Of a stretch of 61,344 bases of DNA, positions 3,045 to 44,624 are shown piece after piece. Position numbers and translations under genes: made by a program. Positions within the stretch are counted from its first letter, which is position 1. Each line of letters begins with the position of its first letter. The DNA is from a virus, in the IMG/VR virus record IMGVR_UViG_3300033153_010600, positions 1-61,344 of that record. One strand, 5' to 3'. Under the pieces are notes generated by a model that ran no database searches, was not told the DNA's origin, and was given only the letters and a program-made list of their open reading frames with translations.

Positions 3045-6000
3045 CTAGAACGCGGCTGTAATGGTGCACCGGCAGTTGCTTATGCCGATGTCCTGTGCTA
3101 TAATGAGCCCGGTCACACTCTGGAGGTCATACACATGGTCCGCAAACTCGTAATACCGAACCTCGACGACTTGATCCAACAGTACATTGCCGGGAAATCG
3201 CTCAAGCAACTCAGCGACGAGTCTGGCTACAGCCGCCCCGTCCTGCTTCGTCGCCTCCGGGAACGCAACATCCAAATTAGAGGCCGATCCGAAGCAGAGA
3301 CCCTGAAATGGAGCCGACTCAAGACAGACCGCGCTGCCGTCGTTCGCCAATGCGGAGCTGCCTGGCACGCTACCGCCGCCAAAAGCAAACCCGCCCCTGG
3401 CGTGTTGTGTAGCTACAGGCATCGTGCCGACGCCGCCGTTACTAAATACAAACGGCAATCCCAAGTTTACCCCTTCGAGAACGTCTTCGCTGATATCTTG
3501 CGAGCCAACGGGTTCGCCGTTGAACAGCAATGGCCCGTCGGGCCTTACAACCTCGACATCGCCGTGGCAGAATCGCTCGTCGCCGTGGAAGTCGAGCGAA
3601 AAAATGCCCACACGTTCAACGCACCAACGACTGGACATCTCTGCTCGGGACCGCAACGCCTCGAATACTTGCTCGATGGCGGCTGGACGGTGATATTCAT
3701 TATCGCCGTTTATAGGCATGGCAAACGGATTATCGACCCGTCCTTGGTATCCAATGATCTGATCGCCCTTGTCAAGTTGGCCTGCGGGGACGAATCCCTC
3801 CGTGGTAAGTACGGTGTGTTGTGGGGTGACGGACAGCCGCCTGCCGCTTCGCGTTATCACTTCGCAGGCCGGCCCTTCATACCAGGCTTTGGTCCCGGCG
3901 ACAAATCGGCCTTGGACTAGCTGCCCCGGCAAGATGCAGTTGCATCGTTGCCCCGGCTCCAACGAGTGGTGTCCAGGGTACGGCACCCTCTGCCCACCAA
4001 GCTGAAACAGCCCGTCCGGCGAATCCGGCCCCGGCGCTACCACGCCGTGCAAGGCCAGGTGCTCTGGCCGCGTGTACTGGTCGGCCGTCGCGGACCACCG
4101 GCGACCCTTGATGAGACCCTGACGAATCAGCTCGTCCTGTTGGTGAAAATGCCCCCCATTCAACACGCCCGTCGTCTCCGTACGGGCGATGTTCGCCGAC
4201 CGGACCACCGTTGTTGTCGAGCCCAGCACGCCGTCCGTCACGCCCGGCACCGTCGGGCTGTCCCCGATGCGGACGATCAGCTCGTATTCGCTCTCGCCGG
4301 CCGCGATCCCCTCGCTCATCGTCTTGACCAGCTTGCCCCGCGTCGTCGCGTTGATATGCGGGCTGAAGTTCTGCGTCAGGATCGTTTCGAGATCCGCCCG
4401 CATCGCCGCCTGGACCTCCGGCGAAAGATCGGACATCTCTATCATTTGTTTCGATCGGCGCGGCGAAAGCTCCCGCAGGGCCCCGTCTACCATTATCGCC
4501 TCGCACGTCGGCCGGACGGCCTCTATCAGCCGCTCGTCCCAGTCGACCCGATCGAACACCTCGGCCGCCACGGCCTCGCCCGACAGCCCCTCGACGCCGC
4601 CGGCCGCCGCCAGCCGGCGGAACCGCTCCTGCACGTCCTCGCGCTGGGCCAAGAAGAAGTCGAGCATCACGGCCTGTAGCTGCCGCTCGTGATGCTTGTG
4701 GGCCTTGGCCCACGCCGATGTCTCAGGCGAGGCCGTCAGGGACTTTCGGCCGTTTTTTTTTGCGTCCTTCTGCGGCTCGACGGGCATAAGCACCTGCGTC
4801 GGGGGCGCCGCCATCGTCTCCCCGTCCATGATCGGCCCCAGCCCCAGCATCCCGGCCCGCAGCTCGTTGCGGCTGACGCTCTGATGCTTCGCCGCCAGCT
4901 CCCAGTCCTTCCGCCGCTCTTCCCGGTCGTCCGGCGTGTACGGCTCGATCCACATCGCCAGCTTCTGGTTGCGGCCCGCGAACCGGGGAGCGAATTTCTT
5001 GGTCAGCACTTTGCTGATCAGATCCATGTTGGGATTTAGGGTGAACTCCCCAAAATGGCGACGAGATTCTGCCGACGCCGCCCGGCTCGACGGCTCGGCC
5101 TTGCCCATCACGTAGGGATTCGCGCCAATCCCCTGCGTGATCCGCTCATAGGTAATTTGCCCCGAGTCGGGGAAGTCCATCTCCTCGACGCTGTTCGACA
5201 GCTTCTTCACGTCCCGGATCAGGGCGTCCAGCACAAGCGGCGACCCGGCCCTTGCGGCCGTGGCCCACTTCTGGGCGATCGCCGTCTCGACCAGCAGCCG
5301 CTGCTCCGATTTCAGCAGCGGCATGCCGTCCTCCTCGCCATCCTCGTCCGCCGGGTCGCCGACAAGGAACGCCCAGCGTGGGAACACGCCGTTGGAGAAC
5401 AGTGCCTCCTGGCACATCTGGATCTGCTCGTCCGTGCGAATGGCCCGCCCCTGGGCCTGGGCCGCCGATTTCGCCCCCAGCAGGTTCGCCGGGTCCGGAC
5501 GGTGAACCATGATTATTTCGTCGGCAGCCGCGTCAACCGACGTGATCCCGCCGCCGGGAAACACCTTCCATCCAGAGAACGGGCCCTTCTCGTGGTTCGG
5601 CACAACCCACGACGTTGGCAGCGGCCACAAGACATGGCCATTCGTTGCCCTGCGGGTGGCGGACTTGGTGTGCCACCAGTAGGTGATCCCCGTGACGATC
5701 AGGTTGACGATCGTCAGGTACTTGAGGTGCCAGTCCGTCATCACCGGATTGGGGTCTTCGATCAGGTCGAGAGCCAAGTGCGTCTCGTGGATGTCGAGGT
5801 CGGGAGCCGTCGCCTTGAGAGACTTCGGCAGCAACACTTCCCGGCCGTCGTGCGTCTCGCCCCAGAACGCGGTGGTCATGCCCTCGACAGGGCGGATGGA
5901 GCGGATGGATCTGCCGCCGGCCCTGGAGCCCGGCCTCCGCACCGTGGCAACCCGGACCGCCTGCCCCGCCACCGTGTCGGCGATCGGGCGGATGGCGGCG

Positions 6001-6191
6001 TAGAGGATGCCGCGGAACCGAAGATAGTCGTCCTCGGCCCCCATGTCTCTGGCCACGGTCGGCACCAAGGGCCCCAGGGCCACGCCTCCCTCGGCGAGCC
6101 CGGCGTCGGCAACGGCGCGGAATTGAGCTACGCGGGCGCGGCTCTGGGCCCTGAGCCTGGTGGCACGTTCGGCGGCGGCGATAGCGGTCAT
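3045..6191 (-). CDS. Portal protein fused to a MuF-like minor head protein, with an intein, 1048 aa
   Basis: Residues about 1–480 resemble a phage portal (N-terminal MTAIAAAERATRLRAQ, central GRILYAAIRPIADT-type helix, EMDFPDSGQITYE region), the ring through which DNA enters the head. Residues about 490–751 resemble a Mu gpF-type head protein, ending PGQRCN. The MuF signature NCRCTI is split: an intein occupies residues 752–1039 and the last nine residues (CRCTITAAF) complete the motif after splicing. The mature product would be about 760 aa. Such portal–MuF fusions occur in some phages. It lies upstream of the coupled gene at 2811. The antisense strand of the intein region carries another gene (3135–3920). 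Confidence 0.85.
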   Translation of the reverse strand: MTAIAAAERATRLRAQSRARVAQFRAVADAGLAEGGVALGPLVPTVARDMGAEDDYLRFRGILYAAIRPIADTVAGQAVRVATVRRPGSRAGGRSIRSIRPVEGMTTAFWGETHDGREVLLPKSLKATAPDLDIHETHLALDLIEDPNPVMTDWHLKYLTIVNLIVTGITYWWHTKSATRRATNGHVLWPLPTSWVVPNHEKGPFSGWKVFPGGGITSVDAAADEIIMVHRPDPANLLGAKSAAQAQGRAIRTDEQIQMCQEALFSNGVFPRWAFLVGDPADEDGEEDGMPLLKSEQRLLVETAIAQKWATAARAGSPLVLDALIRDVKKLSNSVEEMDFPDSGQITYERITQGIGANPYVMGKAEPSSRAASAESRRHFGEFTLNPNMDLISKVLTKKFAPRFAGRNQKLAMWIEPYTPDDREERRKDWELAAKHQSVSRNELRAGMLGLGPIMDGETMAAPPTQVLMPVEPQKDAKKNGRKSLTASPETSAWAKAHKHHERQLQAVMLDFFLAQREDVQERFRRLAAAGGVEGLSGEAVAAEVFDRVDWDERLIEAVRPTCEAIMVDGALRELSPRRSKQMIEMSDLSPEVQAAMRADLETILTQNFSPHINATTRGKLVKTMSEGIAAGESEYELIVRIGDSPTVPGVTDGVLGSTTTVVRSANIARTETTGVLNGGHFHQQDELIRQGLIKGRRWSATADQYTRPEHLALHGVVAPGPDSPDGLFQLGGQRVPYPGHHSLEPGQRCNCILPGQLVQGRFVAGTKAWYEGPACEVITRSGRRLSVTPQHTVLTTEGFVPAGQLDKGDQIIGYQGRVDNPFAMPINGDNEYHRPAAIEQVFEALRSRAEMSSRWCVERVGIFSLDFHGDERFCHGDVEVVRPDGPLLFNGEPVGSQDISEDVLEGVNLGLPFVFSNGGVGTMPVATQHARGGFAFGGGSVPGSSALANDGSAVCLESAPFQGLCFGSASNLDVAFPEATKQDGAAVARLVAELLERFPGNVLLDQVVEVRYYEFADHVYDLQSVTGLIIAQDIGISNCRCTITAAF
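3076..3104 (+). promoter_or_regulatory. Promoter of the antisense endonuclease gene
   Basis: TTGCTT (3076–3081) and TATAAT (3099–3104) with a 17-bp spacer. It sits in the codons for the intein C-terminus and reads toward the ATG at 3135; GGAGG precedes that ATG by 8 nt. Confidence 0.7.
3135..3920 (+). CDS. Putative homing endonuclease (HTH + EDxHD/Vsr-like), antisense to the intein
   Basis: Start at ATG 3135 behind GGAGGTCATACAC. Residues about 8–45 form a resolvase-like helix-turn-helix (DLIQQYIAGKSLKQLSDESG). Residues about 110–175 resemble a Vsr/EDxHD-type nuclease fold: FENVFADILRANGF, VEQQWPVGPYNLDIAV, VAVEVERKNAH. It lies entirely within the minus-strand intein codons, so both strands of this 786-bp stretch appear to be coding. 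It would cut intein-less portal–MuF alleles and thereby spread the intein (inference from position). It ends at TAG. Confidence 0.7.
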   Translation: MVRKLVIPNLDDLIQQYIAGKSLKQLSDESGYSRPVLLRRLRERNIQIRGRSEAETLKWSRLKTDRAAVVRQCGAAWHATAAKSKPAPGVLCSYRHRADAAVTKYKRQSQVYPFENVFADILRANGFAVEQQWPVGPYNLDIAVAESLVAVEVERKNAHTFNAPTTGHLCSGPQRLEYLLDGGWTVIFIIAVYRHGKRIIDPSLVSNDLIALVKLACGDESLRGKYGVLWGDGQPPAASRYHFAGRPFIPGFGPGDKSALD

Positions 6192-12287: not shown

Positions 12288-12983
12288 TTAGCCACCTACG
12301 CTATTCCAAGGGGAAAAATGTTGGTCGCCCCGGACGCGGCTCGCCCGTCGAACCACGAGTTGCGTGAACCAGGGGACGCGAAGGTTGCTTAGCAGACGCA
12401 ACAGATCCGCCACGTGCCGGCTACGCAGCAGCAGAAGGGCAAGCACGACGTTGAGTGCCACGGCGCCGTACTTCTCGCGCGAGAGGAGACGCGCATTCAG
12501 GTAAGTGCTTGCCAATTCCATCAGACGATCACCCAGCTCGGGCTCGCTATCCGGTTCCTCCGGCGGCTGTGAAGTCAGCTTCCGCACAAGGGTCTTGGCT
12601 ACCTCCAGTTCCACTTCCAGCGGAACCGTGGCATTTTGATCGCTGGCCAAGAGGACAGCCAAATCCCCTAAATCACCTCCGTGCATCGTTGCGACGTACT
12701 TCCGAATCGCCGAAGCAACTGCGACCAGGTCCTCTGGATCATCACTGTTGCGATGGTCCTCAATGAAGCGACGGAGGACCACATTGAGCCGGCTACGCTC
12801 GTCAGGCGCAAACGGTAGGACCTCCGCTTCGATCACCATTCTCCGCCTCACCGGATGATCCGTACTCGCATTCTCAAGTACGGCCAACACTGACTCAGGG
12901 GAGAGTCCTTCTGCGGTCAGATCACTTCGCAGGGACAGTTTTTGTCCCCCATGAATTGTCGGCTTGTGGGCTTGTTTGAACAC
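12288..12983 (-). CDS. Hypothetical protein, 231 aa
   Basis: An open frame from GTG 12983 encodes an all-helical, Leu/Arg/Glu-rich protein (RSDLTAEGLSPESVLAVLE, SREKYGAVALNVVLALLLLRSRH). No domain recognised; HEAT-like helices are possible. Start uncertain because no clear ribosome site is visible. It lies 11 nt upstream of the radical-SAM gene on the same strand. Confidence 0.5.
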   Translation of the reverse strand: MFKQAHKPTIHGGQKLSLRSDLTAEGLSPESVLAVLENASTDHPVRRRMVIEAEVLPFAPDERSRLNVVLRRFIEDHRNSDDPEDLVAVASAIRKYVATMHGGDLGDLAVLLASDQNATVPLEVELEVAKTLVRKLTSQPPEEPDSEPELGDRLMELASTYLNARLLSREKYGAVALNVVLALLLLRSRHVADLLRLLSNLRVPWFTQLVVRRASRVRGDQHFSPWNSVGG

Positions 12984-13146
12984 CGATCCCCATATCTAGG
13001 GGGATACTTTCGCAAATCTCCGGCGTGACCCGCCAGTGAAAACAGCTCCCGCCAATGGCAGATCCGGCTTTCCAGTTCGGAGACAGGGCCTTGGCGGCAC
13101 TGGCGGGCTTTACGGGATGTCGCAAACCCGCCGCCGGAGTATGGTC

Positions 13147-13500
13147 TTGACTTGTCCTTGTGCATGCGGTATTCTGTCGGCACTGGCTTTCCAGAGAGTC
13201 TAGTTTCGGAGTTTGGGTTATGTCGCGTCGCCACTTTCTCCCTACAAAAAGAGGCGAGTCACAAATCGGCGGGCCTTCAACTCGGCCCGAGAGTCTCGGC
13301 ACCCCAAAGGGGTTCTTTCCGCGTCATCGCGGTTTCTTCCCAGGCAACGGGCACAGGTTGTGTGCATTTACCCCTACGCCCTGGTCCCAATGGCTTCGCA
13401 ATAAGAATCCCGTATTAAAGGGTTGTGGCTCGCCACCGCAACGGCCGTGTCTCGAACCGCGTCCACGCCGACGGAGCAGCAGCGTGGGCTGACCCCGGAG
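13147..13500 (+). ncRNA. Structured RNA, family copy 1
   Basis: A consensus promoter (TTGACT 13147–13152, 17 bp, TATTCT 13170–13175) reads rightward into a region without a convincing ORF. The block 13230–13347 is homologous to the minus strand of 37978–38098: shared ACAAAAAGAG, ACAAATCGGCGGGC, GCCCGAG, and a final CGCGG/GGCAA stretch. Stems CGGGC/GCCCG (13270–13289) and CCGCG/CGCGG (about 13319–13332) are kept while loops differ, the pattern expected for RNA. Length and 3' end not defined. Confidence 0.6.
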
Positions 13501-13639
13501 CTATCGACACGTCGCGTCAGGCCCCCCATGGGGCAAGCCTATAGGGAAGGGGTACACCGATACATTCTCGACTACGCATAGTTGGGCGGAAGCGAATGCT
13601 CCGGAGCACGCTTCCCCCGTGATCCTTTTCTTCTGCTCT

Positions 13640-13682
13640 TGGTTATGGTACCATGCAATTATGCTGAAAAGTGTGTTGCGAG
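13640..13682 (+). promoter_or_regulatory. Promoter–handle element antisense to the ASCH gene end
   Basis: Reads TGGTACCATGCAATTATGCTGA then AAAGTGTGTTGCGAG. The -10 is the weak TACCAT; the handle ends at 13682. It points into the 3' end of the minus-strand gene. Confidence 0.5.
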
Positions 13683-14114
13683 CTCTAGGATCTTTTTCTC
13701 CAGCCAGTTCGGCACATCCCAAAGCCCCAACGCTCCCTTGCATTGCACGGGCTGTTTCAACTTCCGCACTTTCCCCAATACCAAGCAAAGCGGGCCTTCG
13801 GTGTGTTCGTGTGCCAAGAACTCTTCGACCGTCGGGCCTTCGGGGGCAACCAAACGGTCGAGGGTTAACGAACAGTCATTCAGTCTCCGACGAACTACGT
13901 CGGGGCGTAAACAATTCAGCAACTCCGCCACCGCGACAATCGCTCCTGTCGGATATTCTCGCAGCTCATCGCGGCTCAGGTATTGCGTACCTTTACCCGC
14001 ATGGATTGCAAGCGGTCCACGGTAGGATGGCATGCGTTGCCAGCAGCGGTTCTCTACCCACTTCTCTGTGCCGATCATTGAGGCGTATGGTTGGGATATC
14101 GTGATGGCTTTCAT
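13659..14114 (-). CDS. ASCH-domain protein, 151 aa
   Basis: Starts MKAITISQPYASMIGTEKWV, with ENRCWQRMPSYRGPLAIHAGK, the typical ASCH/PUA-like N-terminus, and AIVAVAELL farther on. ASCH proteins bind RNA or modified nucleotides. The last residues (ELATHFSA) are encoded by the complement of a promoter–handle element (13640–13682, plus strand), so the 3' end is shared with that element. Start ATG 14114 chosen over the longer Arg/Gly-rich frame. Confidence 0.75.
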   Translation of the reverse strand: MKAITISQPYASMIGTEKWVENRCWQRMPSYRGPLAIHAGKGTQYLSRDELREYPTGAIVAVAELLNCLRPDVVRRRLNDCSLTLDRLVAPEGPTVEEFLAHEHTEGPLCLVLGKVRKLKQPVQCKGALGLWDVPNWLEKKILELATHFSA

Positions 14115-14482
14115 CCGCTCGGCTCCGGAACACGCTTCTCCCGTGATCTCTTCTCGCGAAGCAGCTTCTTCGCCGCGAGCACGTGCTCGCGGAACGCCTC
14201 CCGCCCCGCCCCGAACGTCGCGTCGTTCGCCACCGCCACCAGGGCCAACAGCACGTGCGACACGGCTTCCGACAGGCACTCCCCGTAGAGGTGCCCGTAC
14301 ACGCGGTCGTTGGCGAGGTGCTCGTCCAACTCCTCGGCCGTCGCACGTATCTCCCTCGCCTCCGCGGCCCACGCCGCCTGCTGTTCCACGTCACGCCGGT
14401 CCACAAACTTGGACTCGGCCTTCCGCAGCCGGCGGAGTAGGGCTTTCAGCGCTCGCCGGGCCGTCCGCTCGTCAGGCGTCAT
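14111..14482 (-). CDS. Hypothetical helical protein, 123 aa
   Basis: Starts MTPDERTARRALKALLRRLR; basic and helical, with a central ATAEELDEHLANDRVYGHLYGE stretch. Its ATG overlaps the end of csrA (14472) by 11 nt, and its stop overlaps the ASCH start, so csrA, this gene and ASCH form a tight operon. Function unknown. Confidence 0.65.
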   Translation of the reverse strand: MTPDERTARRALKALLRRLRKAESKFVDRRDVEQQAAWAAEAREIRATAEELDEHLANDRVYGHLYGECLSEAVSHVLLALVAVANDATFGAGREAFREHVLAAKKLLREKRSREKRVPEPSG

Positions 14483-26228: not shown

Positions 26229-27089
26229 ATGGCTGAAACCAAACGGCTATCCATCAACCTGATCCGCCGCGACAAGAGCACGCAGGGACGAGTGGGCGTC
26301 GACACGGAAACGGTAGAACAATACCGGGAAGTCTATACGGAGCTGCCGCCCCCCAAGGTCTGCAAGGACGACGAGGGCATCTACTGGCTATATGACGGCT
26401 TCGCCACGATAGAGGCGTTTACCCTAGAGGGCCGCAAACAGATCGACTGCGAGGTCCGCAAGGGCAGCTACGAAGACGCCAGGTGGCTGGCGGCCGGCGC
26501 GAACGTTGACCACGACACCGCCGGCCGGCGGCGGACAAACGCGGACAAGCGGCGGGCCGTCGAAGTGGCCCTGTCGTGCCCGCGGTCGGACGAGAAGTCG
26601 AACGGCGAGATCGCGGATCACTGCCGGGTCAGCCGCGACCTAGTTGCCTCGGTCCGGGCGGAAATTGGCGACACGGTACTTTTGGGGGGAAGGGTCGGCT
26701 CAGCCGACCCTTCCCTACTATCCGGGGGGGGCGCGGCGGCCGGCACTTTGGCGGCCGCCTCGAAGCGGCAGCGGGCAAAAACATCTAAGCAAAAGCCACC
26801 CAAAGCCGAGACGCCCGAGCCTACCTCGCCGCCGAACGGCTCCAGCCGCCTCTCCGCCCCCGCTTCGGCTGAGGACTGCGGGCACCACGATGACCCGAAG
26901 TATCTCCACGGCACGCGGGCCGAGCTGAAGGATCGCCTCACGAAACGGCTCACTTCGCTACATTCATTGCTGGGCGAGATCGACAAACTGTACGATCGGA
27001 TAGGAGCAAATACGGGGCAGGTAGAGGAGCACCTGGCGGCGATCGCCAAGGCCCAGCACAGCCTGGCGGCGATCGCCAACGGTCTATAG
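26229..27089 (+). CDS. ParB/Srx-domain protein with an inserted REP-like segment, 286 aa
   Basis: ATG behind GTGGAGGCTAGAGC. Residues 1–120 resemble a ParB N-terminal domain (RVGVDTETVEQYREVY, YWLYDGFATIEAF, AAGANVDHDTAGRRR), with an HTH (DEKSNGEIADHCRVSRDLVA) at about 118–140. The REP-like element (26671–26733) is read in frame as VLLGGRVGSADPSLLSGGG. A disordered linker and a C-terminal coiled coil follow. TAG stop; 14 more codons lead to a TAA that overlaps the next ATG. May act in plasmid-like segregation or as a regulator. Confidence 0.7.
   Translation: MAETKRLSINLIRRDKSTQGRVGVDTETVEQYREVYTELPPPKVCKDDEGIYWLYDGFATIEAFTLEGRKQIDCEVRKGSYEDARWLAAGANVDHDTAGRRRTNADKRRAVEVALSCPRSDEKSNGEIADHCRVSRDLVASVRAEIGDTVLLGGRVGSADPSLLSGGGAAAGTLAAASKRQRAKTSKQKPPKAETPEPTSPPNGSSRLSAPASAEDCGHHDDPKYLHGTRAELKDRLTKRLTSLHSLLGEIDKLYDRIGANTGQVEEHLAAIAKAQHSLAAIANGL
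26671..26733. repeat. Palindromic REP-like element, copy 2 (inside the ParB-like gene)
   Basis: ACACGGTACTTTTGGGGGG, then the palindrome around AAGGGTCGGCTCAGCCGACC, then CCTACTATCCGGGGGGGG. Shares the upstream GGCGACACGGTACTTTT with copy 3, so the repeat unit is at least 60 bp. Confidence 0.7.
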
Positions 27090-27130: not shown

Positions 27131-28198
27131 ATGTGCGAGTTCTTATCCGGCGTGGTCACGATAGAACGGTGCCCTCGTGTGCTTTGTGCCGATTTATGGC
27201 ATCACGAGCGCACGGTGGAGGCGTTCGATCTCAAACCAGAAACGTACCGGGAGTGGGAATGGACTAGGGACGACGACGGCGCCAGCCTCACGGTGCGTGC
27301 CGCGCCGGGCGAAAAAAGCAGCGTGCTGAAGTCGGCTATTCTTGCGAAGTTCCCAACGCGGGAAGACGCGCTGAGGGATTGTATCGCACAAACGTTGGAG
27401 AAAGGTGGTTCGCTCTCCCTTTGCGATTGCACGCTACCCGATAATCTAACGCTACCCGAGTCGATCGGCGGCGGGCTCGACTTTAGTAGATGTACACTAC
27501 CCGATGGTCTGACGCTACCCGAGTCGATCGGCGGCGGGCTCGACTTTAGTAGATGTACACTACCCGATGGTCTGACGCTACCCAAGACGATAGACGGTTG
27601 GCTCAACCTTAGTTACTGCGTGCTGCCTGCCGATTTGACGTTGCCCAAGTCGATCGGCGGTGCATTCTACTTTCGCGGTTGCACGCTGCCCGCTGGTTTG
27701 ACGCTGCCCAAAACAGTAGGCGGTTGTCTCGACCTTTGCGGTTGCACGCTGCCCGCCGATTTGAAGCTACCCGAGTCGGTCGGCGAGTGGTTCTACCTTT
27801 ACGACTGCAAACTGCCTGCCGGATTGACACTACCCAAGTCGATAGGCGGTTGGCTCGATCTTCGCGGTTGCCCATTACCTACTGGCCTGACGCTGCCCGA
27901 GTCGATCGGCGGCGGGCTTGACCTTCGCGGTTGCACGCTACCCGCCGATTTGAAGCTGCCCAAATTGGTAGGCGACTGGCTCTACCTTAGCGGTTGCTCA
28001 TTGCCTGTTGGTCTAACGCTACCCAAGATAGTCGGCGGTTCGCTCTCCCTTTGCGATTGCAAGCTACCCGCCGGATTGAAGCTACCTGAGTCGATTGGCG
28101 GTTGCCTTGACCTTCGTCGCTGCACGCTGGCTGAGGGGCTAACATTGGACCTGAGCAAATATAGTGTGGTCCGCGCTGCAAGCTGGCTGAAGGCTTAA
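27131..28198 (+). CDS. Solenoid repeat protein 1, 355 aa
   Basis: Conserved N-terminal domain of about 95 aa (MCEFLSGVVTIERCPRVLCA, LKPETYREWEW), then about 12 units of 21 residues with pattern C-x-LP-x-x-L-x-LP-x-x-[IV]-G-G-x-L-x-L-x-x, probably a β-solenoid. The C-terminus is scarred: LAEGLTLDLSKY occurs once in frame, and a second copy of the same DNA (28172–28232) follows out of frame after the TAA. First of four tandem paralogues. Function unknown. Confidence 0.75.
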   Translation: MCEFLSGVVTIERCPRVLCADLWHHERTVEAFDLKPETYREWEWTRDDDGASLTVRAAPGEKSSVLKSAILAKFPTREDALRDCIAQTLEKGGSLSLCDCTLPDNLTLPESIGGGLDFSRCTLPDGLTLPESIGGGLDFSRCTLPDGLTLPKTIDGWLNLSYCVLPADLTLPKSIGGAFYFRGCTLPAGLTLPKTVGGCLDLCGCTLPADLKLPESVGEWFYLYDCKLPAGLTLPKSIGGWLDLRGCPLPTGLTLPESIGGGLDLRGCTLPADLKLPKLVGDWLYLSGCSLPVGLTLPKIVGGSLSLCDCKLPAGLKLPESIGGCLDLRRCTLAEGLTLDLSKYSVVRAASWLKA

Positions 28199-28251
28199 CA
28201 TTGGACCTGAGCAAGTACCGTATAATCCGCTAGGCAACAGGAGCCATCACA

Positions 28252-29361
28252 ATGTGCAAATTTTTATCCGGCGTGGTCACGATGGAGCGGTGCCCGCGAG
28301 TGCTCTGCGCCGACCTATGGCACCACGAGCGTACGGTGGAGGCGTTCGGCCTTAAGCCGGAGACGTACCGAGAATGGGAATGGCTCGAAGACGACGACGG
28401 CGCCAGCCTCACGGTGCGTGCTATACCCGATGAAAATCCCAACGTGTTGAAGTCGGCCATCCTAGCGAAATACCCGACGCGGGAAGAAGCGCTGAGGGCT
28501 TGTATTGCACAGGTGTTAGAGAGACATGGCAGGCTCGATTTCGGTGATTGCGTGCTGCCTGCCAACCTAACACTACCTGAGTTGATAGACGGTTGTCTCG
28601 ACTTTAGCGGATGTGCACTACCCGCCAGTCTAACACTACCCGAGACGATAGGCGAATGGCTCGATCTTAGTGGTTGTGTATTGCCTGCCGAATTAACGCT
28701 ACCCAAGTCAGTCGGCAGTTCACTCTACCTCTGCAACTGCGTGTTACCCGCTAGTTTGGAGTTACCTGAGACGATTGGTGGCTCACTTAACCTTAGTGGC
28801 TGCAAGTTGCCTGTTGGATTAACGCTACCCAATCCAATAGACGGTATACTCAACCTCAACGGCTGCACGCTACCTATTGGTTTGACGCTACCCGAGTCGA
28901 TCGGCGGCGGGCTCGACCTTCGCGGTTGCACGCTGCCCGCCGATTTGAAGCTACCCGAGTCGATCGGCGGCTCGCTTGACCTTCGCGGTTGCTCATTGCC
29001 TATTGGTCTAACGCTACCCAAGACAGTCGGCGGTTCGCTCTCCCTTTGCGATTGCAAGCTACCCGCCGGATTGAAGCTACCCGAGTCGATTAGCGGCGGA
29101 CTCGACCTTTGTGGTTGCGTACTGCCTGCCGATCTGAAGATGCCCGAGTCGGTGGGCGATTGGCTCTACCTTAGCGGTTGCTTATTGCCCGTTGGTCTAA
29201 CGCTACCCGAGACAGTCGGCGGTTCGCTCTACCTTTGCGATTGCGAGTTACCTGCTAGGCTAACGCTACCCGAGTCGATCGGCGGCTCGCTTGACCTTCG
29301 CGGTTGCACGCCGGCTGAAGGCTTAACATTGGACCTGAGCAAGTACCGCGTGATCCGTTAA
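28252..29361 (+). CDS. Solenoid repeat protein 2, 369 aa
   Basis: Same architecture as its neighbours: N-terminal domain (MCKFLSGVVTMERCPRVLCA) and about 12 repeats (LTLPESIGGGLDLRGC-type). It ends LAEGLTLDLSKY-like (PAEGLTLDLSKYRVIR). An AACAGGAGCCATCACA leader is identical to that of paralogue 3, so the ribosome site is conserved. Confidence 0.75.
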   Translation: MCKFLSGVVTMERCPRVLCADLWHHERTVEAFGLKPETYREWEWLEDDDGASLTVRAIPDENPNVLKSAILAKYPTREEALRACIAQVLERHGRLDFGDCVLPANLTLPELIDGCLDFSGCALPASLTLPETIGEWLDLSGCVLPAELTLPKSVGSSLYLCNCVLPASLELPETIGGSLNLSGCKLPVGLTLPNPIDGILNLNGCTLPIGLTLPESIGGGLDLRGCTLPADLKLPESIGGSLDLRGCSLPIGLTLPKTVGGSLSLCDCKLPAGLKLPESISGGLDLCGCVLPADLKMPESVGDWLYLSGCLLPVGLTLPETVGGSLYLCDCELPARLTLPESIGGSLDLRGCTPAEGLTLDLSKYRVIR

Positions 29362-29379
29362 TCAACAGGAGCCATCACA

Positions 29380-30678
29380 ATGTGCGAGTTCTTATCCGGC
29401 GTGGTCACGATGGAGCGGTGCCCGCGAGTGCTCTGCGCTGATTTGCGGCATTGCGAATACACAGTGGCAGCGTTCGGTCTTAAGCCGGAGACGTACCGAG
29501 AATGGGAATGGCTCGAAGACGACGACGGAGCCAGCCTCACGGTGTATGCCGCGCCCGGCGAAGAAGGCAGCGTGCTGAAGTCGGCCATCCTGGCAAAATA
29601 CCCGACGCGGGAAGACGCGCTGAGGGCTTGCGTCGCTCAGGCGTTGGAGAAACGCGGTTTGCTCGACTTTCGCAGCTGTACGCTACCCGCTGATTTGAAG
29701 CTACCCGAGTCGATGGATGACTCGCTCAATCTTCGCTATTGCACGCTACCCGACGGATTGACGCTACCCAAGTCGATCGGTGGCTGGCTCGACCTTAACA
29801 ACTCCGTGCTACCCGACGGTTTGAAGCTACCCGAATCGGTAGGCGGCTCGCTCGACCTTAGTGGCTGCAAGTTGCCTGTTGGATTGACGCTACCCAAGTC
29901 GATCGGCGGCTCGCTCGACCTTAGCGATTGTAAGCTGCACGCTGGATTGAAATTACCCAAGTCGGTGGGCAAGTGGCTCTACCTTTGCGGCTGCACGCTA
30001 CCCAACGGGCTGACGTTGCCTAAGTCGATGAACGGTTCGCTTGACCTCAGCTACTGCACGCTACCCGCCGATCTGAAGCTACCCAAGTCGATTGGCGGCT
30101 CGCTTGACCTCTATTACTGCGTGCTACCTGCTGGCCTGACGCTGCCCGAGTCGATCGGCGGCGGGCTCGATCTTCGCGGCTGCGTATTACCCGCTGGGCT
30201 GACGCTGCCCGAGTCGATCGGCGATGAACTCTGCCTTCGCAACTGCACGCTGCCCGACGATTTGACGCTGCCCGAGACAATAGGCGGTTGGCTTGACCTT
30301 CGCGGCTGCGTATTACCCGCTAGTCTGACACTACCCGAGTCGATCAGCGGCTCGCTCGATCTTCGCGGCTGCAAGCTACCCGCTAGTCTGTCGCTACCCG
30401 AGTCGATCGGCGGTTCGCTCTACCTTCGCGGCTGCACATTGTCTAGCGATTTGACATTACCCAAATCGGTAGGCGGTTCGTTTAACCTTTGCGATTGCGT
30501 ATTACCTGTTGGGCTGACGCTACCCGAGTCGATTGGCGGTGAACTCTACTTTTGGAATTGTAAGCTACCCGCTGGGCTAACGCTACCCAAGTCGATTGGC
30601 GGTTGGCTCGACCTTAGCGGCTGCACGTTGGCTGAAGGCTTAACGTTGGACCTGAGTAAGTACCGCGTGATCCGTTAA
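29380..30678 (+). CDS. Solenoid repeat protein 3, 432 aa
   Basis: Longest of the four, with about 15–16 repeat units after the shared N-terminal domain. Many units differ from neighbours only by silent changes, indicating recent internal duplication. Cysteines recur once per unit (for example LRGCTLPADL), so they probably stack along one face. It ends LSKYRVIR. Confidence 0.75.
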   Translation: MCEFLSGVVTMERCPRVLCADLRHCEYTVAAFGLKPETYREWEWLEDDDGASLTVYAAPGEEGSVLKSAILAKYPTREDALRACVAQALEKRGLLDFRSCTLPADLKLPESMDDSLNLRYCTLPDGLTLPKSIGGWLDLNNSVLPDGLKLPESVGGSLDLSGCKLPVGLTLPKSIGGSLDLSDCKLHAGLKLPKSVGKWLYLCGCTLPNGLTLPKSMNGSLDLSYCTLPADLKLPKSIGGSLDLYYCVLPAGLTLPESIGGGLDLRGCVLPAGLTLPESIGDELCLRNCTLPDDLTLPETIGGWLDLRGCVLPASLTLPESISGSLDLRGCKLPASLSLPESIGGSLYLRGCTLSSDLTLPKSVGGSFNLCDCVLPVGLTLPESIGGELYFWNCKLPAGLTLPKSIGGWLDLSGCTLAEGLTLDLSKYRVIR

Positions 30679-30696
30679 TCAACAGGAGCCAATATA

Positions 30697-31512
30697 ATGT
30701 GCGAATTTCTATCCGGCATAGTTACGATGGAGCGGTACCCTCGTGTGCTCTGCGCCGACCTACGGCATCACGAGCGCACGGTGGAGGCGTTCGATCTCAA
30801 GCCGGAAACGTACCGGGAGTGGGAATGGGTCGAGGACGACGACGGAGCCAGCCTCACGGTGCGTGCCGCGCCCGGCGAGAATCCCAGCGTGCTGAAGTCG
30901 GCCATCCTGGCGAAATACCCGACGCGGGGAGACGCGCTGAGGACTTGCGTTGCTCAGGCGTTGGAAAAAAGCGGTTCGCTCTACCTTCGCGATTGCAAGC
31001 TGCCTGACGGTTTGACGCTGCCCGAGACGATAGATGGTTGGCTCGACCTTCATGGTTGCGTATTGCCTGCTAGTCTAACGCTACCCAAAACAGTTGGTGG
31101 CTGGCTCAACCTCGACGGCTGCATGCTACCCGCCGGAGTGACGTTACCCGAGTCGATCGGCGGCTGGCTTGACCTCAACAACTCCGTGCTACCCGACGGA
31201 CTAACGCTACCCAAGTTGGTAGGCGATTCGCTCGACCTTCGCGGCTGCAATCTACCTGCTAGTCTGACGCTACCCAAGACAGTTGGCAGTTCACTCTACC
31301 TTTGCGATTGCGAGCTACCCAACGGATTGACATTACCCAAGTTGGTAGGCGGTTCGCTCGACCTTCGCGGTTGCAAGCTACCTGCTGGCCTGACGCTACC
31401 CGAGTCGATCGGCGGTTCGCTCGACCTTCGTCGCTGCACGCTAGCTGAGGGTCTGATATTGGACCTGAGCAAATATAGTGCGGTCCGCGCTGCACGTTGG
31501 CGAAGGGTTTAA
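30697..31512 (+). CDS. Solenoid repeat protein 4, 271 aa
   Basis: Shared N-terminal domain and about 8 repeats. The end is scarred like paralogue 1: LAEGLILDLSKYSAVRAA runs into a short divergent tail, and an extra copy of the AEGLTLDLSKYRVIR codons (31497–31547) follows out of frame. Last of the tandem set, 78 nt before the helicase gene. Confidence 0.75.
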   Translation: MCEFLSGIVTMERYPRVLCADLRHHERTVEAFDLKPETYREWEWVEDDDGASLTVRAAPGENPSVLKSAILAKYPTRGDALRTCVAQALEKSGSLYLRDCKLPDGLTLPETIDGWLDLHGCVLPASLTLPKTVGGWLNLDGCMLPAGVTLPESIGGWLDLNNSVLPDGLTLPKLVGDSLDLRGCNLPASLTLPKTVGSSLYLCDCELPNGLTLPKLVGGSLDLRGCKLPAGLTLPESIGGSLDLRRCTLAEGLILDLSKYSAVRAARWRRV

Positions 31513-36080: not shown

Positions 36081-36153
36081 TATAATAGGGAGAGTTGTAG
36101 ATGCGTCAACCCCGGTAGGCGTTTCTGCTGAGATCTGAGAAGTGTGTTGCGAG
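36081..36153 (+). promoter_or_regulatory. Promoter and handle-bearing leader of the primase
   Basis: TATAAT (36081–36086), then GTCAACCCCGGTAGGCG, which recurs in the leader at 38179 as GTCAACCCCGGCAGGCG, then GCTGAGATCTGAGAAG leading into a handle (36139–36153). The primase ATG is 66 nt further on. Confidence 0.55.
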
Positions 36154-37720: not shown

Positions 37721-37759
37721 CCGATTTCAGCGGAGCCGGATTTCTCTGGCGAGTCGAAT

Positions 37760-38183
37760 AGATAGACCGACCCTCCCTGGGCATCCCCGTACATGGTAGC
37801 CGTGATGACGCTCGTTGATTCTAGAAGACGCCCGGCTGTCTGCTTCGATCGGCCGGGACCGGTTCGGGCTTCTGCGACACAGGCTGGCAAGGCCCGTGTA
37901 GACCTACTGACGGCGTTCTGTTTGCCGGATGCCTTTTGGACCGGGACGCGGTCGGCGCGGTTGGATCGACTACCAGCTCGTTGCCCGGGAGAAGCCGCGA
38001 TGTGCGGCACAGAATACCTTTCGGCTGCATCGGCCCTCGGGCGGAGATATGCGCCCGCCGATTTGTATTCCGGCTCTTTTTGTGGGGTGAAAGTGCCGGC
38101 ACGACGTAACCCCTCTTCGAGAATCGGTCTCCGCCGAACTATTCGGCTGAATGTAGTATAATATGGGCTAGTGAACGTGTCAA
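37760..38183 (-). ncRNA. Structured RNA, family copy 2, with consensus promoter
   Basis: On the minus strand TTGACA (38183–38178), 17 bp, TATACT (38160–38155). Downstream, 38098–37978 matches the plus-strand block 13230–13347: CACAAAAAGAG, ACAAATCGGCGGGC, GCCCGAGG and the CCGC/GCGG stem, with loop changes that keep the stems. No convincing ORF is present on either strand across 37721–38263. The 3' end is unknown. Confidence 0.65.
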
Positions 38184-38263: not shown

Positions 38264-38299
38264 ATGGCAACGGCTGAAATCCAAGAAGTGTATAGCGAG
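38264..38299 (+). repeat. Solitary array repeat, start-codon variant
   Basis: ATGGCAACGGCTGAAATCCA then AGAAGTGTATAGCGAG. The usual GTGAC is ATGGC, so the repeat could itself open a reading frame (MATAEIQEV) in frame with the gene at 38321. Confidence 0.65.
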
Positions 38300-38320
38300 C
38301 AAAAGCGAAAGGACAATCGA

Positions 38321-38764
38321 ATGGCCGAAAAAGCACCTGAAGAGCGTTTGTGGGGCTGCATAGTACAAATCATGCTGATGGCGTTTTTCATCTATATCAT
38401 AGGCGTTCTTCTTGCGGCCCTGTTTAAGTCCGCGTCTATGCCGGACGTTACGCCGTCGTACAGGCCGCCTGCCACGCCGTCTTGGGACGACATGTATTCG
38501 TCGCCGGGGCCGTCGCGCAGCAGCGGTGCGACGACTGTCTCGACGTGTACTCTGGCCCCGTCGGCCTCGGCCTACAGGCAGGCCACCGACGCGGCGGCAC
38601 ACGGCAACGGGCTCGGCGTGGCGGCGACCGGCACGGTGATCCTGGAGAGCGGCACGCGGGTCAGGGTGCTCGGCTCGGGCGGGTTCATGCTGAAGCGGGT
38701 GGCCGTGCTGAGCGGACCCTATGCCGGAAAGACGGGCGTGGTTGCGTCGGAAAAAATCCGCTGA
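38321..38764 (+). CDS. Membrane-anchored protein with SH3/KOW-like C-terminus, 147 aa
   Basis: ATG 38321 behind GAAAGGAC. One transmembrane helix (GCIVQIMLMAFFIYIIGVLL) near the N-terminus, a Pro/Ser-rich linker, and a C-terminal β segment (GTVILESGTRVRVLGSG, then VLSGPYAGKTGVV) resembling KOW/SH3 repeats. It lies directly before the tracr-like RNA and the array. Function unknown. Confidence 0.55.
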   Translation: MAEKAPEERLWGCIVQIMLMAFFIYIIGVLLAALFKSASMPDVTPSYRPPATPSWDDMYSSPGPSRSSGATTVSTCTLAPSASAYRQATDAAAHGNGLGVAATGTVILESGTRVRVLGSGGFMLKRVAVLSGPYAGKTGVVASEKIR

Positions 38765-38771
38765 GATATGG

Positions 38772-39012
38772 TATAATAGAAATCAACGGGGTCCTCGCAG
38801 CCCCAATGAGAGGCGAGAAGTACCATGACACCCAAACGGCAATCACGGCGCATCCGTCCCCGATCATGTGCAAGCATGACGGGTGACGGTCGCCGGCTGA
38901 GCGGGTCCGGGCAACTCTCGCTGAAGGCTCCTGAAACAGGCCGGATATGCCGTGAGCCCGGCCGACACACTTCGCCTGGTGCGGTGATTCATCGCCGCAC
39001 CAGGTTTTTATT
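38772..39012 (+). ncRNA. Candidate tracrRNA-like RNA at the head of the array
   Basis: TGGTATAAT (extended -10, 38770–38777) predicts a start near 38784. The unit ends in a 10-bp stem CCTGGTGCGG/CCGCACCAGG (38975–39004) followed by TTTTTATT, a strong intrinsic terminator. Just before it, CGACACACTTC (38963–38973) can pair over 11 bp (one G·U) with GAAGTGTGTTG of every repeat and solo handle. An 83-aa frame exists across it but looks unlike a protein. The array begins 2 nt after the terminator. This is the arrangement expected of a tracrRNA for a type V-like effector (inference). Confidence 0.6.
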
Positions 39013-40701: not shown

Positions 40702-41985
40702 ATGGCCATCGGAATTCTAGAAGTCAAGCTGGGGCGTCCGATCCAAATGCCAACGAAGCGGTTCCACCAGCTACTCAGGCAGGCCCGCCGCGATTGCTGC
40801 AAAGCACGCAACGCGGCCATGCTCCACTGGTATGTCTGGCGGCGAGAGCACGCGGATTGGGAGCCGGGAAAACCATACGAGGCGCCGAAAGCCAAGATTA
40901 TGCGAACTCGCAAACCGGCAGGCGAAGGGAAGAAGCCACCGAAGGACTCGCCGATTGCCCCTCGCCTATTTCTTAGCCGCGAACTCTACCACGCGGCAAC
41001 CGCGGCGGCGCGGAACCTGTCGGCGTCGCTCGCCTCGTCGTGTGTACAGGAGGTGATCGCCCGACTCAAGGCCAACACCCCTTACGACCACGACGGCGAA
41101 GCGAGGTGGGTATGGCAAGCAATCCTTGCGTCCGAAGTCAATCTGCCCACCTGGCGCGGCGGGCGCATCCCGATGCCCAAGCGGTGCTCGTCGCTCGGAT
41201 ACGACGGGGCCGTCAGCCAACCGTCGGCTGACGTGGCGAGGGCCTGCAAAAGCGGGTGCGTTTTGAAGTTTCAACTGCTGTCTAGGCTGAGCGGCTATAG
41301 GACGCTATCGCCCATCGTCCGACTGGACGCCGCCGACCTGACGCGGGGCAACCGGCGATTGCTGAGGCGTCTGGCGTCTGGCGAGGTACGTCTGGCAGAC
41401 AGCCAGATCGTCGAGAAAAAGGGCAAGTGGTTCGCCCAATTCTGCTACGAGGTGGCGGCCAACGCGATCGGCCTGCCAACGGATCAGGTGTTGACGCTAC
41501 TGCCGGCGGAGCCGGACGACAAGTGGCCGTTCGCGCTCGCATGGACCAAGGAGGATGGGAATGGGCGGGTGTGGAAGATTGGCAACGGGCGGCCGCTCGT
41601 GGCCGAATACCGCCGGGTAGTAGCCCGGCGCCGGGCGATCCGCTACCGCTACCAGGACGGGACGGGCAGCGGGCACGGGCGCCAGCGGTGGTACAAGGCG
41701 ATTCGTCCGATGGCTCACGCCGTGCGGGACATGCAGAACCGCTTTGAGAAGCAGACGATTGCGGACATCATCAAGCTGGCGATTCGTGAGCGGTGCGGCA
41801 CGGTCCTGTACCGCGAGCCGACGATGCCGGTCCGCAACTATTCGTGGTTTGCGGCCAAGGACGTGCCGTTTGACTGGACGAGTTTCGAGGCGAGGCTGCG
41901 GTTCAAGACGGAGACGCGCGGCCTGGCCTACGAGAAGGCGCGTATCGGGATGAAGGAATGGCGTCCAAGAAAAATCGCAAACTGA
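40702..41985 (+). CDS. TnpB/Cas12-like effector, probably nuclease-dead, 427 aa
   Basis: ATG 40702, 25 nt after a repeat, behind GGGAGCGAGG. Residues 1–12 and about 186–252 match the split OBD/wedge strands (CVLKFQLLSR, LASGEVRLADSQIV, KGKWFAQFCYE). Helices at about 20–50 and 90–125 fit the recognition lobe. Residues 324–363 (GHGRQRW, then IRPMAHAVRDMQNRFEKQTI) match the RuvC bridge/helix. The strand before it (WPFALAW, 275–281), where RuvC-I normally has GxDxG, has no Asp. GTVLYREPT (366–374) is the RuvC-II position. The chain ends at 427 before zinc ribbon and RuvC-III. Compare Cas12m and TldR-type dead homologues. It likely binds guided DNA without cutting. Confidence 0.75.
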   Translation: MAIGILEVKLGRPIQMPTKRFHQLLRQARRDCCKARNAAMLHWYVWRREHADWEPGKPYEAPKAKIMRTRKPAGEGKKPPKDSPIAPRLFLSRELYHAATAAARNLSASLASSCVQEVIARLKANTPYDHDGEARWVWQAILASEVNLPTWRGGRIPMPKRCSSLGYDGAVSQPSADVARACKSGCVLKFQLLSRLSGYRTLSPIVRLDAADLTRGNRRLLRRLASGEVRLADSQIVEKKGKWFAQFCYEVAANAIGLPTDQVLTLLPAEPDDKWPFALAWTKEDGNGRVWKIGNGRPLVAEYRRVVARRRAIRYRYQDGTGSGHGRQRWYKAIRPMAHAVRDMQNRFEKQTIADIIKLAIRERCGTVLYREPTMPVRNYSWFAAKDVPFDWTSFEARLRFKTETRGLAYEKARIGMKEWRPRKIAN

Positions 41986-44289: not shown

Positions 44290-44624
44290 ACACGCTGATC
44301 TTCCTGGCCGCGTGGCTGGCGATGGGCCTGGCTGGCGTCGCCCTTGGGGCGATTGCACGGCGGCGTATCGGCTTGCCGCAGAACGACCGCCTAACGCAGG
44401 TCACAGCTTCGTTTGCTGGGCCGATGGTCCTGATAGGCGGGATCGTGATGCTGATCTACTCTCGCAACATACTTCGCAGCACAACTGCATGGTACCATTC
44501 CTCGGCGGACGCAGGGAGGACGACTCGCAATTTGCCCTGTCGCAAGACGCCCCCCCCGGACAGTAGGGAAGGGTCGGCCGAGCCGACCCTTCCCCCCAAA
44601 AGTACCGTGTCGCCGGAGAAATAG
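44286..44624 (+). CDS. Two-helix membrane protein with element-derived tail, 112 aa
   Basis: ATG overlaps the previous stop (ATGA). Two hydrophobic helices (LIFLAAWLAMGLAGVALGAI and GPMVLIGGIVMLIY). After residue about 58 the sequence comes from an antisense promoter–handle (44461–44500) and REP-like copy 3 (PPDSREGSAEPTLPPKST), so the original C-terminus seems to have been overwritten. Confidence 0.5.
   Translation: MNTLIFLAAWLAMGLAGVALGAIARRRIGLPQNDRLTQVTASFAGPMVLIGGIVMLIYSRNILRSTTAWYHSSADAGRTTRNLPCRKTPPPDSREGSAEPTLPPKSTVSPEK
44461..44510 (-). promoter_or_regulatory. Promoter–handle element
   Basis: Minus strand: CCGCCGAGGAATGGTACCAT, GCAGTTGTGCTGC, then GAAGTATGTTGCGAG at 44475–44461. 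Same layout as 16971 and 18535, with a weaker -10 (TACCAT). Confidence 0.5.
44549..44613. repeat. Palindromic REP-like element, copy 3 (inverted)
   Basis: Reverse orientation relative to copies 1 and 2: CCCCCCCCGGACAGTAGGGA, the palindrome centred near 44581, then CCCCAAAAGTACCGTGTCGCC. It fills the end of the gene at 44286 and abuts the ribosome site of 44627. Confidence 0.7.

Follow-up and report, generated by a model that had tools for sequence, protein, structure and literature searches.

Two diverged copies of a putative structured noncoding RNA, each with its own promoter, in a phage genome encoding a Cas12f-like protein

Large noncoding RNAs of phages form a known and barely understood group, with a function for only a few of its members. 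A virus record from IMG/VR (61,344 bp, analysed in full and referred to here as the window) raises the question of whether two similar intergenic stretches on opposite strands are genes for one such RNA, as the initial annotation proposed, and of what this RNA might do. The window encodes a portal-Mu F fusion, a terminase large subunit, DNA methyltransferases, RecT, a helicase and a ParB-like protein, with genes mostly on the minus strand in the left arm and on the plus strand in the right arm. Cumulative GC skew reaches its minimum at ~26000, the point at which gene orientation diverges, and both RNA copies are directed toward this minimum, one per side and each ~12.5 kb away. The portal and Mu F-like head protein form a single fused ORF (3045-6191, minus strand), residues 771-1024 of which give a weak match to an intein-splicing domain; four paralogous genes (27131-31512, plus strand) carry tandem 21-aa repeats (63-nt units); a longer phage protein (14472-15062, minus strand) carries a CsrA domain at its C-terminus; and a strong hairpin element, GGGAAGGGTCGGC...GCCGACCCTTCCC, occurs three times (2471-2525, 26667-26733 and 44548-44614, with mutual likeness of 89-97%). 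The window contains no tRNA and no RVT_1 (reverse transcriptase) domain, so that the nearby reverse transcriptase gene expected of a retron or reverse-transcriptase RNA is missing. A search of IMG/VR for relatives of the phage via the terminase or the Cas12-like protein found none.

The existence of two copies in opposite orientation is well founded. A blastn comparison of 13140-13420 with its own record returned 37976-38112 on the opposite strand (76% identity, E 6.4e-20), and in a repeat scan the same pair (I1) was the longest inverted repeat of the window (126 nt ungapped, 73%). The two homologous cores (Table 1) lie ~25 kb apart, align over 139 nt at 75.5%, and both contain the block ACAAATCGGCGGGC that had been described as shared. 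The length of 118 bp originally assigned was too short, as homology extends over about three times that length, reaching ~13577 and ~37741. Downstream of the core, the local alignment score of the two copies was 55, compared with a shuffled mean of 23.4 (maximum 40 among 500). By segment against copy 2, scores of 32 for 13353-13420, 34 for 13421-13500 and 41 for 13421-13658 were reached by 0, 3 and 0 of 1000 dinucleotide shuffles, respectively, while the alignment of 13501-13658 taken alone was not significant (116/1000 shuffles). Judged from these alignments, homology in copy 1 spans 13215 to at least 13490 and probably to 13577, and in copy 2 it runs from 38112 to about 37741. Each element measures ~360-400 nt and fills most of its intergenic gap, antisense to the neighbouring genes at both places, and a profile built from the two copies found no third copy in the window. 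By eye, the gene adjoining copy 1 (13659-14372, minus strand) is ASCH-like, and it has no Pfam match; the segment directly upstream of copy 1 (13028-13110) is strongly foldable on both strands (z -2.8 and -3.1 for 13000-13125).

Table 1. Positions in the window of the two elements, their predicted parts and neighbouring features
Feature	Position	Strand	Evidence or remark
Promoter, copy 1 (TTGACT-17-TATTCT)	13147..13175	+	9/12 consensus bases
Promoter, copy 2 (TTGACA-17-TATACT)	38155..38183	-	11/12; best sigma-70-like site in window
Leader, copy 1	13182..13214	+	Start ~13182, predicted from -10 box
Leader, copy 2	38113..38148	-	No alignment to copy 1 leader
Conserved core, copy 1	13215..13352	+	Alignment; consensus fold energy reached by 0/200 shuffles
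Conserved core, copy 2	37976..38112	-	blastn, repeat scan, pair analysis
H1, copy 1: UCGCC-A-CUUU-[CUCCCUACAA]-AAAG-A-GGCGA	13228..13257	+	Loop conserved; 2 pairs changed on both sides
H2, copy 1: CGGGCC/GGCCCG, preceded by invariant linker ACAAAUCGG	13270..13289	+	1 pair changed on both sides
H3, copy 1: CCC/GGG; GAAA loop in copy 2 version	13302..13311	+	Pair analysis
H4, copy 1: CCGCG-UCAU-CGCGG, then U-rich stretch	13319..13332	+	Terminator-like; homology extends beyond
H1, copy 2	38099-38070	-	
H2, copy 2	38057-38038	-	
H3, copy 2	38025-38016	-	
H4, copy 2	38008-37994	-	
3' conserved blocks, copy 1	13376..13577 (13377-13413, 13453-13490, weak to ~13577)	+	Shuffled alignments
3' part with conserved blocks, copy 2	37741..37975	-	Local alignment
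Possible 3' domain, copy 1	13338..13547	+	Predicted helix UCCC.GGC (13338-13345) / GCC....GGGA (13537-13547)
Possible long-range helix, copy 2	37990-37983 with 37782-37774	-	Predicted fold
Tracr-like RNA	38784-39005		Promoter TATAAT 38772-38777, terminator 38974-39005
Gene neighbouring copy 1	12288-12983		Divergent from RNA promoter
Gene neighbouring copy 2	38264-38764		Divergent from RNA promoter

Both copies were found to have sigma-70-like promoter sequences of their own, exactly as claimed, and that of copy 2 is the only site in the window with 11/12 consensus matches. The -10 box is separated from the core by 39 nt in copy 1 and 42 nt in copy 2. The intervening leaders (33-36 nt) are not alignable (score 12, compared with a null of 12.5), with their length kept, and the regions above the promoters align no better than chance. 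This retention of the hexamers while the surrounding DNA diverged is the pattern expected of selection for an independent transcript, and each promoter would be predicted to drive an independent, untranslated RNA of ~400 nt. No termination sites were evident, least of all in copy 2. An upstream box, CGCCTRCCGGGGTTGAC, is common to the promoters at 36109 and 38183 (both minus strand) and is a candidate activator site.

The proposal that stems are kept despite sequence changes is supported for the three core hairpins H1-H3, in which all 18 pairs (100%) are paired in both copies, four having changed on both sides and none being broken. No such two-sided changes appeared when the partners were slid by 1-3 columns, and random re-pairing of the same letters attained four changes in 29/500 trials, which makes this modest support taken alone. 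Stronger support comes from the consensus folding energy of the core, which was -80.2, compared with -53.9 (sd 4.5) for column-shuffled alignments, and was reached by 0/200 in both global and local shuffling; a separate calculation on another alignment of the two copies also favoured the fold. On the minus strand, the core likewise has a better fold than its shuffles, less strongly so than on the predicted strand, and for the full element the consensus energy was reached by 0/200 shuffles on the predicted strand vs 12/200 on the other. Single-sequence folding energies are ordinary (z near 0 for the full copies, -1.5 for the core). With only two sequences to compare, both from one genome, the support for structure depends on four two-sided changes. 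Past the core, a long-range helix UCCC.GGC/GCC..GGGA is present in both minimum-energy folds, each copy having been predicted separately, and the consensus energy of the 3' domain is not significant (32/200 shuffles). Long-range pairing could also involve the invariant UCGGC of the linker and GCCGA of the 3' block.

The strongest conservation is found in unpaired and loop letters, namely the hairpin loop ACUUUC-N-CCC-N-ACAAAAAGAG, the linker ACAAAUCGGC and GGCAACG, suggesting a protein-binding platform or a tertiary fold rather than a guide that pairs varied targets. In such a mechanism, the core would bind a phage or host protein, or would fold in three dimensions on its conserved motifs, and the RNA would act in trans as a folded molecule. 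Protein binding in trans is put forward tentatively, at somewhat under even odds.

Copy 2 lies close to a CRISPR-like locus, which consists of a Cas12f/Cas12u3-like protein (40702-41985, plus strand) with CRISPR-like arrays of a 36-nt repeat on both sides, together with a tracr-like RNA in which CGACACACTTCG pairs with the repeat half GAAGTGTGTTGCG, a pairing equalled by only 3/200 shuffles. Compared with solved Cas12f structures, the protein is missing the RuvC-I GIDLG motif and ends before RuvC-III, and, from its sequence, it may be nuclease-dead. No relatives of the protein were found among 392 Planctomycetota genomes, and array 2 had no match in INPHARED. The 3' half of the repeat (GAAGTGTGTTGCGAG) also occurs as single copies at ~30 sites across the window, including 53353(+), 53156(-), 47596(-), 46622(-), 25972(-), 37066(-), 17013(+) and 13668(+). 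Many of these half repeats are located just 3' of a TATAAT-like box, resembling single crRNA units each driven by its own promoter; others are directly upstream of ribosome binding sites.

Two alternative explanations concern a small protein and the CRISPR-like system. The absence of a credible ORF, asserted in the initial annotation, held in the main, in that the copies share no start and the frame is lost past the core, but did not hold entirely, since open frames cross both copies. Frame +1 of the core is open throughout in both copies and could specify a small basic protein (GYVxxxLSPxKKxRxTNRRAxxSARxxxxPKGxL). Its changed codons are conservative (mean BLOSUM62 1.35 vs -0.02 shuffled, p 0.013, uncorrected for the six frames tested), and it contains 9 synonymous changes vs 4.9 expected (p 0.048); core differences fall 15/11/8 by codon position (n=34), a split that is not significant. 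However, the start codon is not shared, only TTG being available in copy 1 and the GTG of copy 2 lying within the core, and a one-base indel at the core end interrupts the frame, with nucleotide homology carrying on past it. In addition, neither the 93-aa ORF of copy 2 (37821-38102) nor the other ORFs tested there has a Pfam match, and the copy 2 peptide has no tblastn match in phages, leaving this protein a very improbable product. In copy 1, another frame offers an ATG together with CGGAG (13220), which resembles a Shine-Dalgarno sequence; copy 2 has ACG in place of this ATG, and the frame is without coding signal. An equally slim chance attaches to the element being part of the CRISPR-like system, serving the Cas12f/Cas12u3-like protein as a second tracr or a guide scaffold. 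The distance of ~0.65-0.7 kb between copy 2 and the tracr-like RNA, on which this suggestion was founded, was measured correctly, the cas-like gene is 2.6 kb away, and half repeats are present near both copies (13668 and 38285), though they are present all over the window. But neither copy contains an anti-repeat, their pairing with the half repeat being matched by 86 and 87 of 200 shuffles (as against 3/200 for the tracr-like RNA), and neither has sequence similarity to that RNA; copy 1 is 25 kb distant from cas, and copy 2 is on the opposite strand, with transcription directed away from the system. A part in the same system was therefore not borne out: position is all that links the element to it, and the link is not supported.

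Two further alternatives were weighed. In one, the RNA would be an antisense-pairing small RNA, with the C-rich H1 loop (CUCCCU / CACCCC) pairing with mRNA ribosome binding sites. The loop is indeed complementary to Shine-Dalgarno-like sequences and pairs slightly better at gene starts than at random windows, but this pairing is not above that of shuffled loops (14/60 and 9/60), the loop differs at two positions between the copies, and much of the conservation falls outside it, which makes such a role unlikely, if the least unlikely of the four alternatives. A little less probable still is a cis-antisense or divergent-promoter regulator of a neighbouring gene, in which transcription would matter and not the RNA. 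At both loci the RNA promoter and the start of the adjacent gene face away from each other, and the RNA runs antisense to the operon around it; however, transcription interference leaves the conserved sequence and structure of the core unexplained, and the neighbour proteins of the two copies are dissimilar by eye, as judged from their translations. The reading first proposed, of a structured RNA in two copies behind promoters of their own, is supported by homology that ends where an RNA core would begin, the kept hexamers, the consensus fold on the predicted strand and the lack of a frame kept past the core, and the probability that the two stretches are paralogous phage noncoding RNA genes is put at roughly 80%. 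The fuller reading, in which they would be untranslated RNAs of ~400 nt acting in trans as folded molecules, stands at about even odds.

Relatives of the element were sought in several collections. Neither copy had a match in Rfam, at the gathering score or at E up to 10, and blastn against INPHARED phages and PLSDB plasmids gave only matches of 23-36 bp (E 0.1 or worse). All viral matches to exact patterns of five conserved blocks in IMG/VR were without the rest of the element, as was each of the 15 matches examined among 86 to patterns of two blocks in GTDB genomes, and a model search of 80 loci among these 86 matches gave one weak chance match only. A covariance model run on 11 whole genomes, 392 Planctomycetota genomes and 301 Chloroflexota genomes found only weak, chance-consistent matches. 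This absence of homologues is weak evidence, because records very near the window are perhaps outside these collections.

Among known RNAs, the closest comparison is with GOLLD and ROOL, which form homo-oligomeric RNA cages. Both are long noncoding RNAs that occur in phages and prophages and have no known function, and GOLLD comprises a well conserved region and a less conserved one, with many members >800 nt (PMC12286853). The element described here would likewise be a long phage RNA with better and less conserved parts. By contrast, GOLLD and ROOL are longer, are often found close to tRNA islands and are covered by Rfam models, whereas this element is ~400 nt, lies in a window without tRNA, matches nothing in Rfam at E up to 10, and is present in two copies in one genome without an elaborate proven fold. 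By the tests available, it does not appear to be a member of either family. Like the Cas12f-type tracrRNA encoded in the same region, it would be a short transcript made independently from a promoter of its own, but the tracr-like RNA possesses a strong terminator and an anti-repeat, both of which the two-copy RNA lacks. A tracrRNA is bound by its Cas protein. The 6S RNA is similar in being an independent RNA of bacterial regulatory size, but folds into a single long hairpin interrupted by a central bubble, whereas the two-copy RNA is predicted to form a row of hairpins and has no Rfam match.

The presence of two copies could provide dosage, or expression at different times. There is a small chance that the pair is the founding member of a new family of ~400-nt two-copy phage RNAs, working as a structured RNA or as an RNA-protein machine in a phage with a Cas12f-like protein and dispersed crRNA-like units. 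The retention of two diverged copies, each with a sigma-70-like promoter, is evidence of selection for the RNA.
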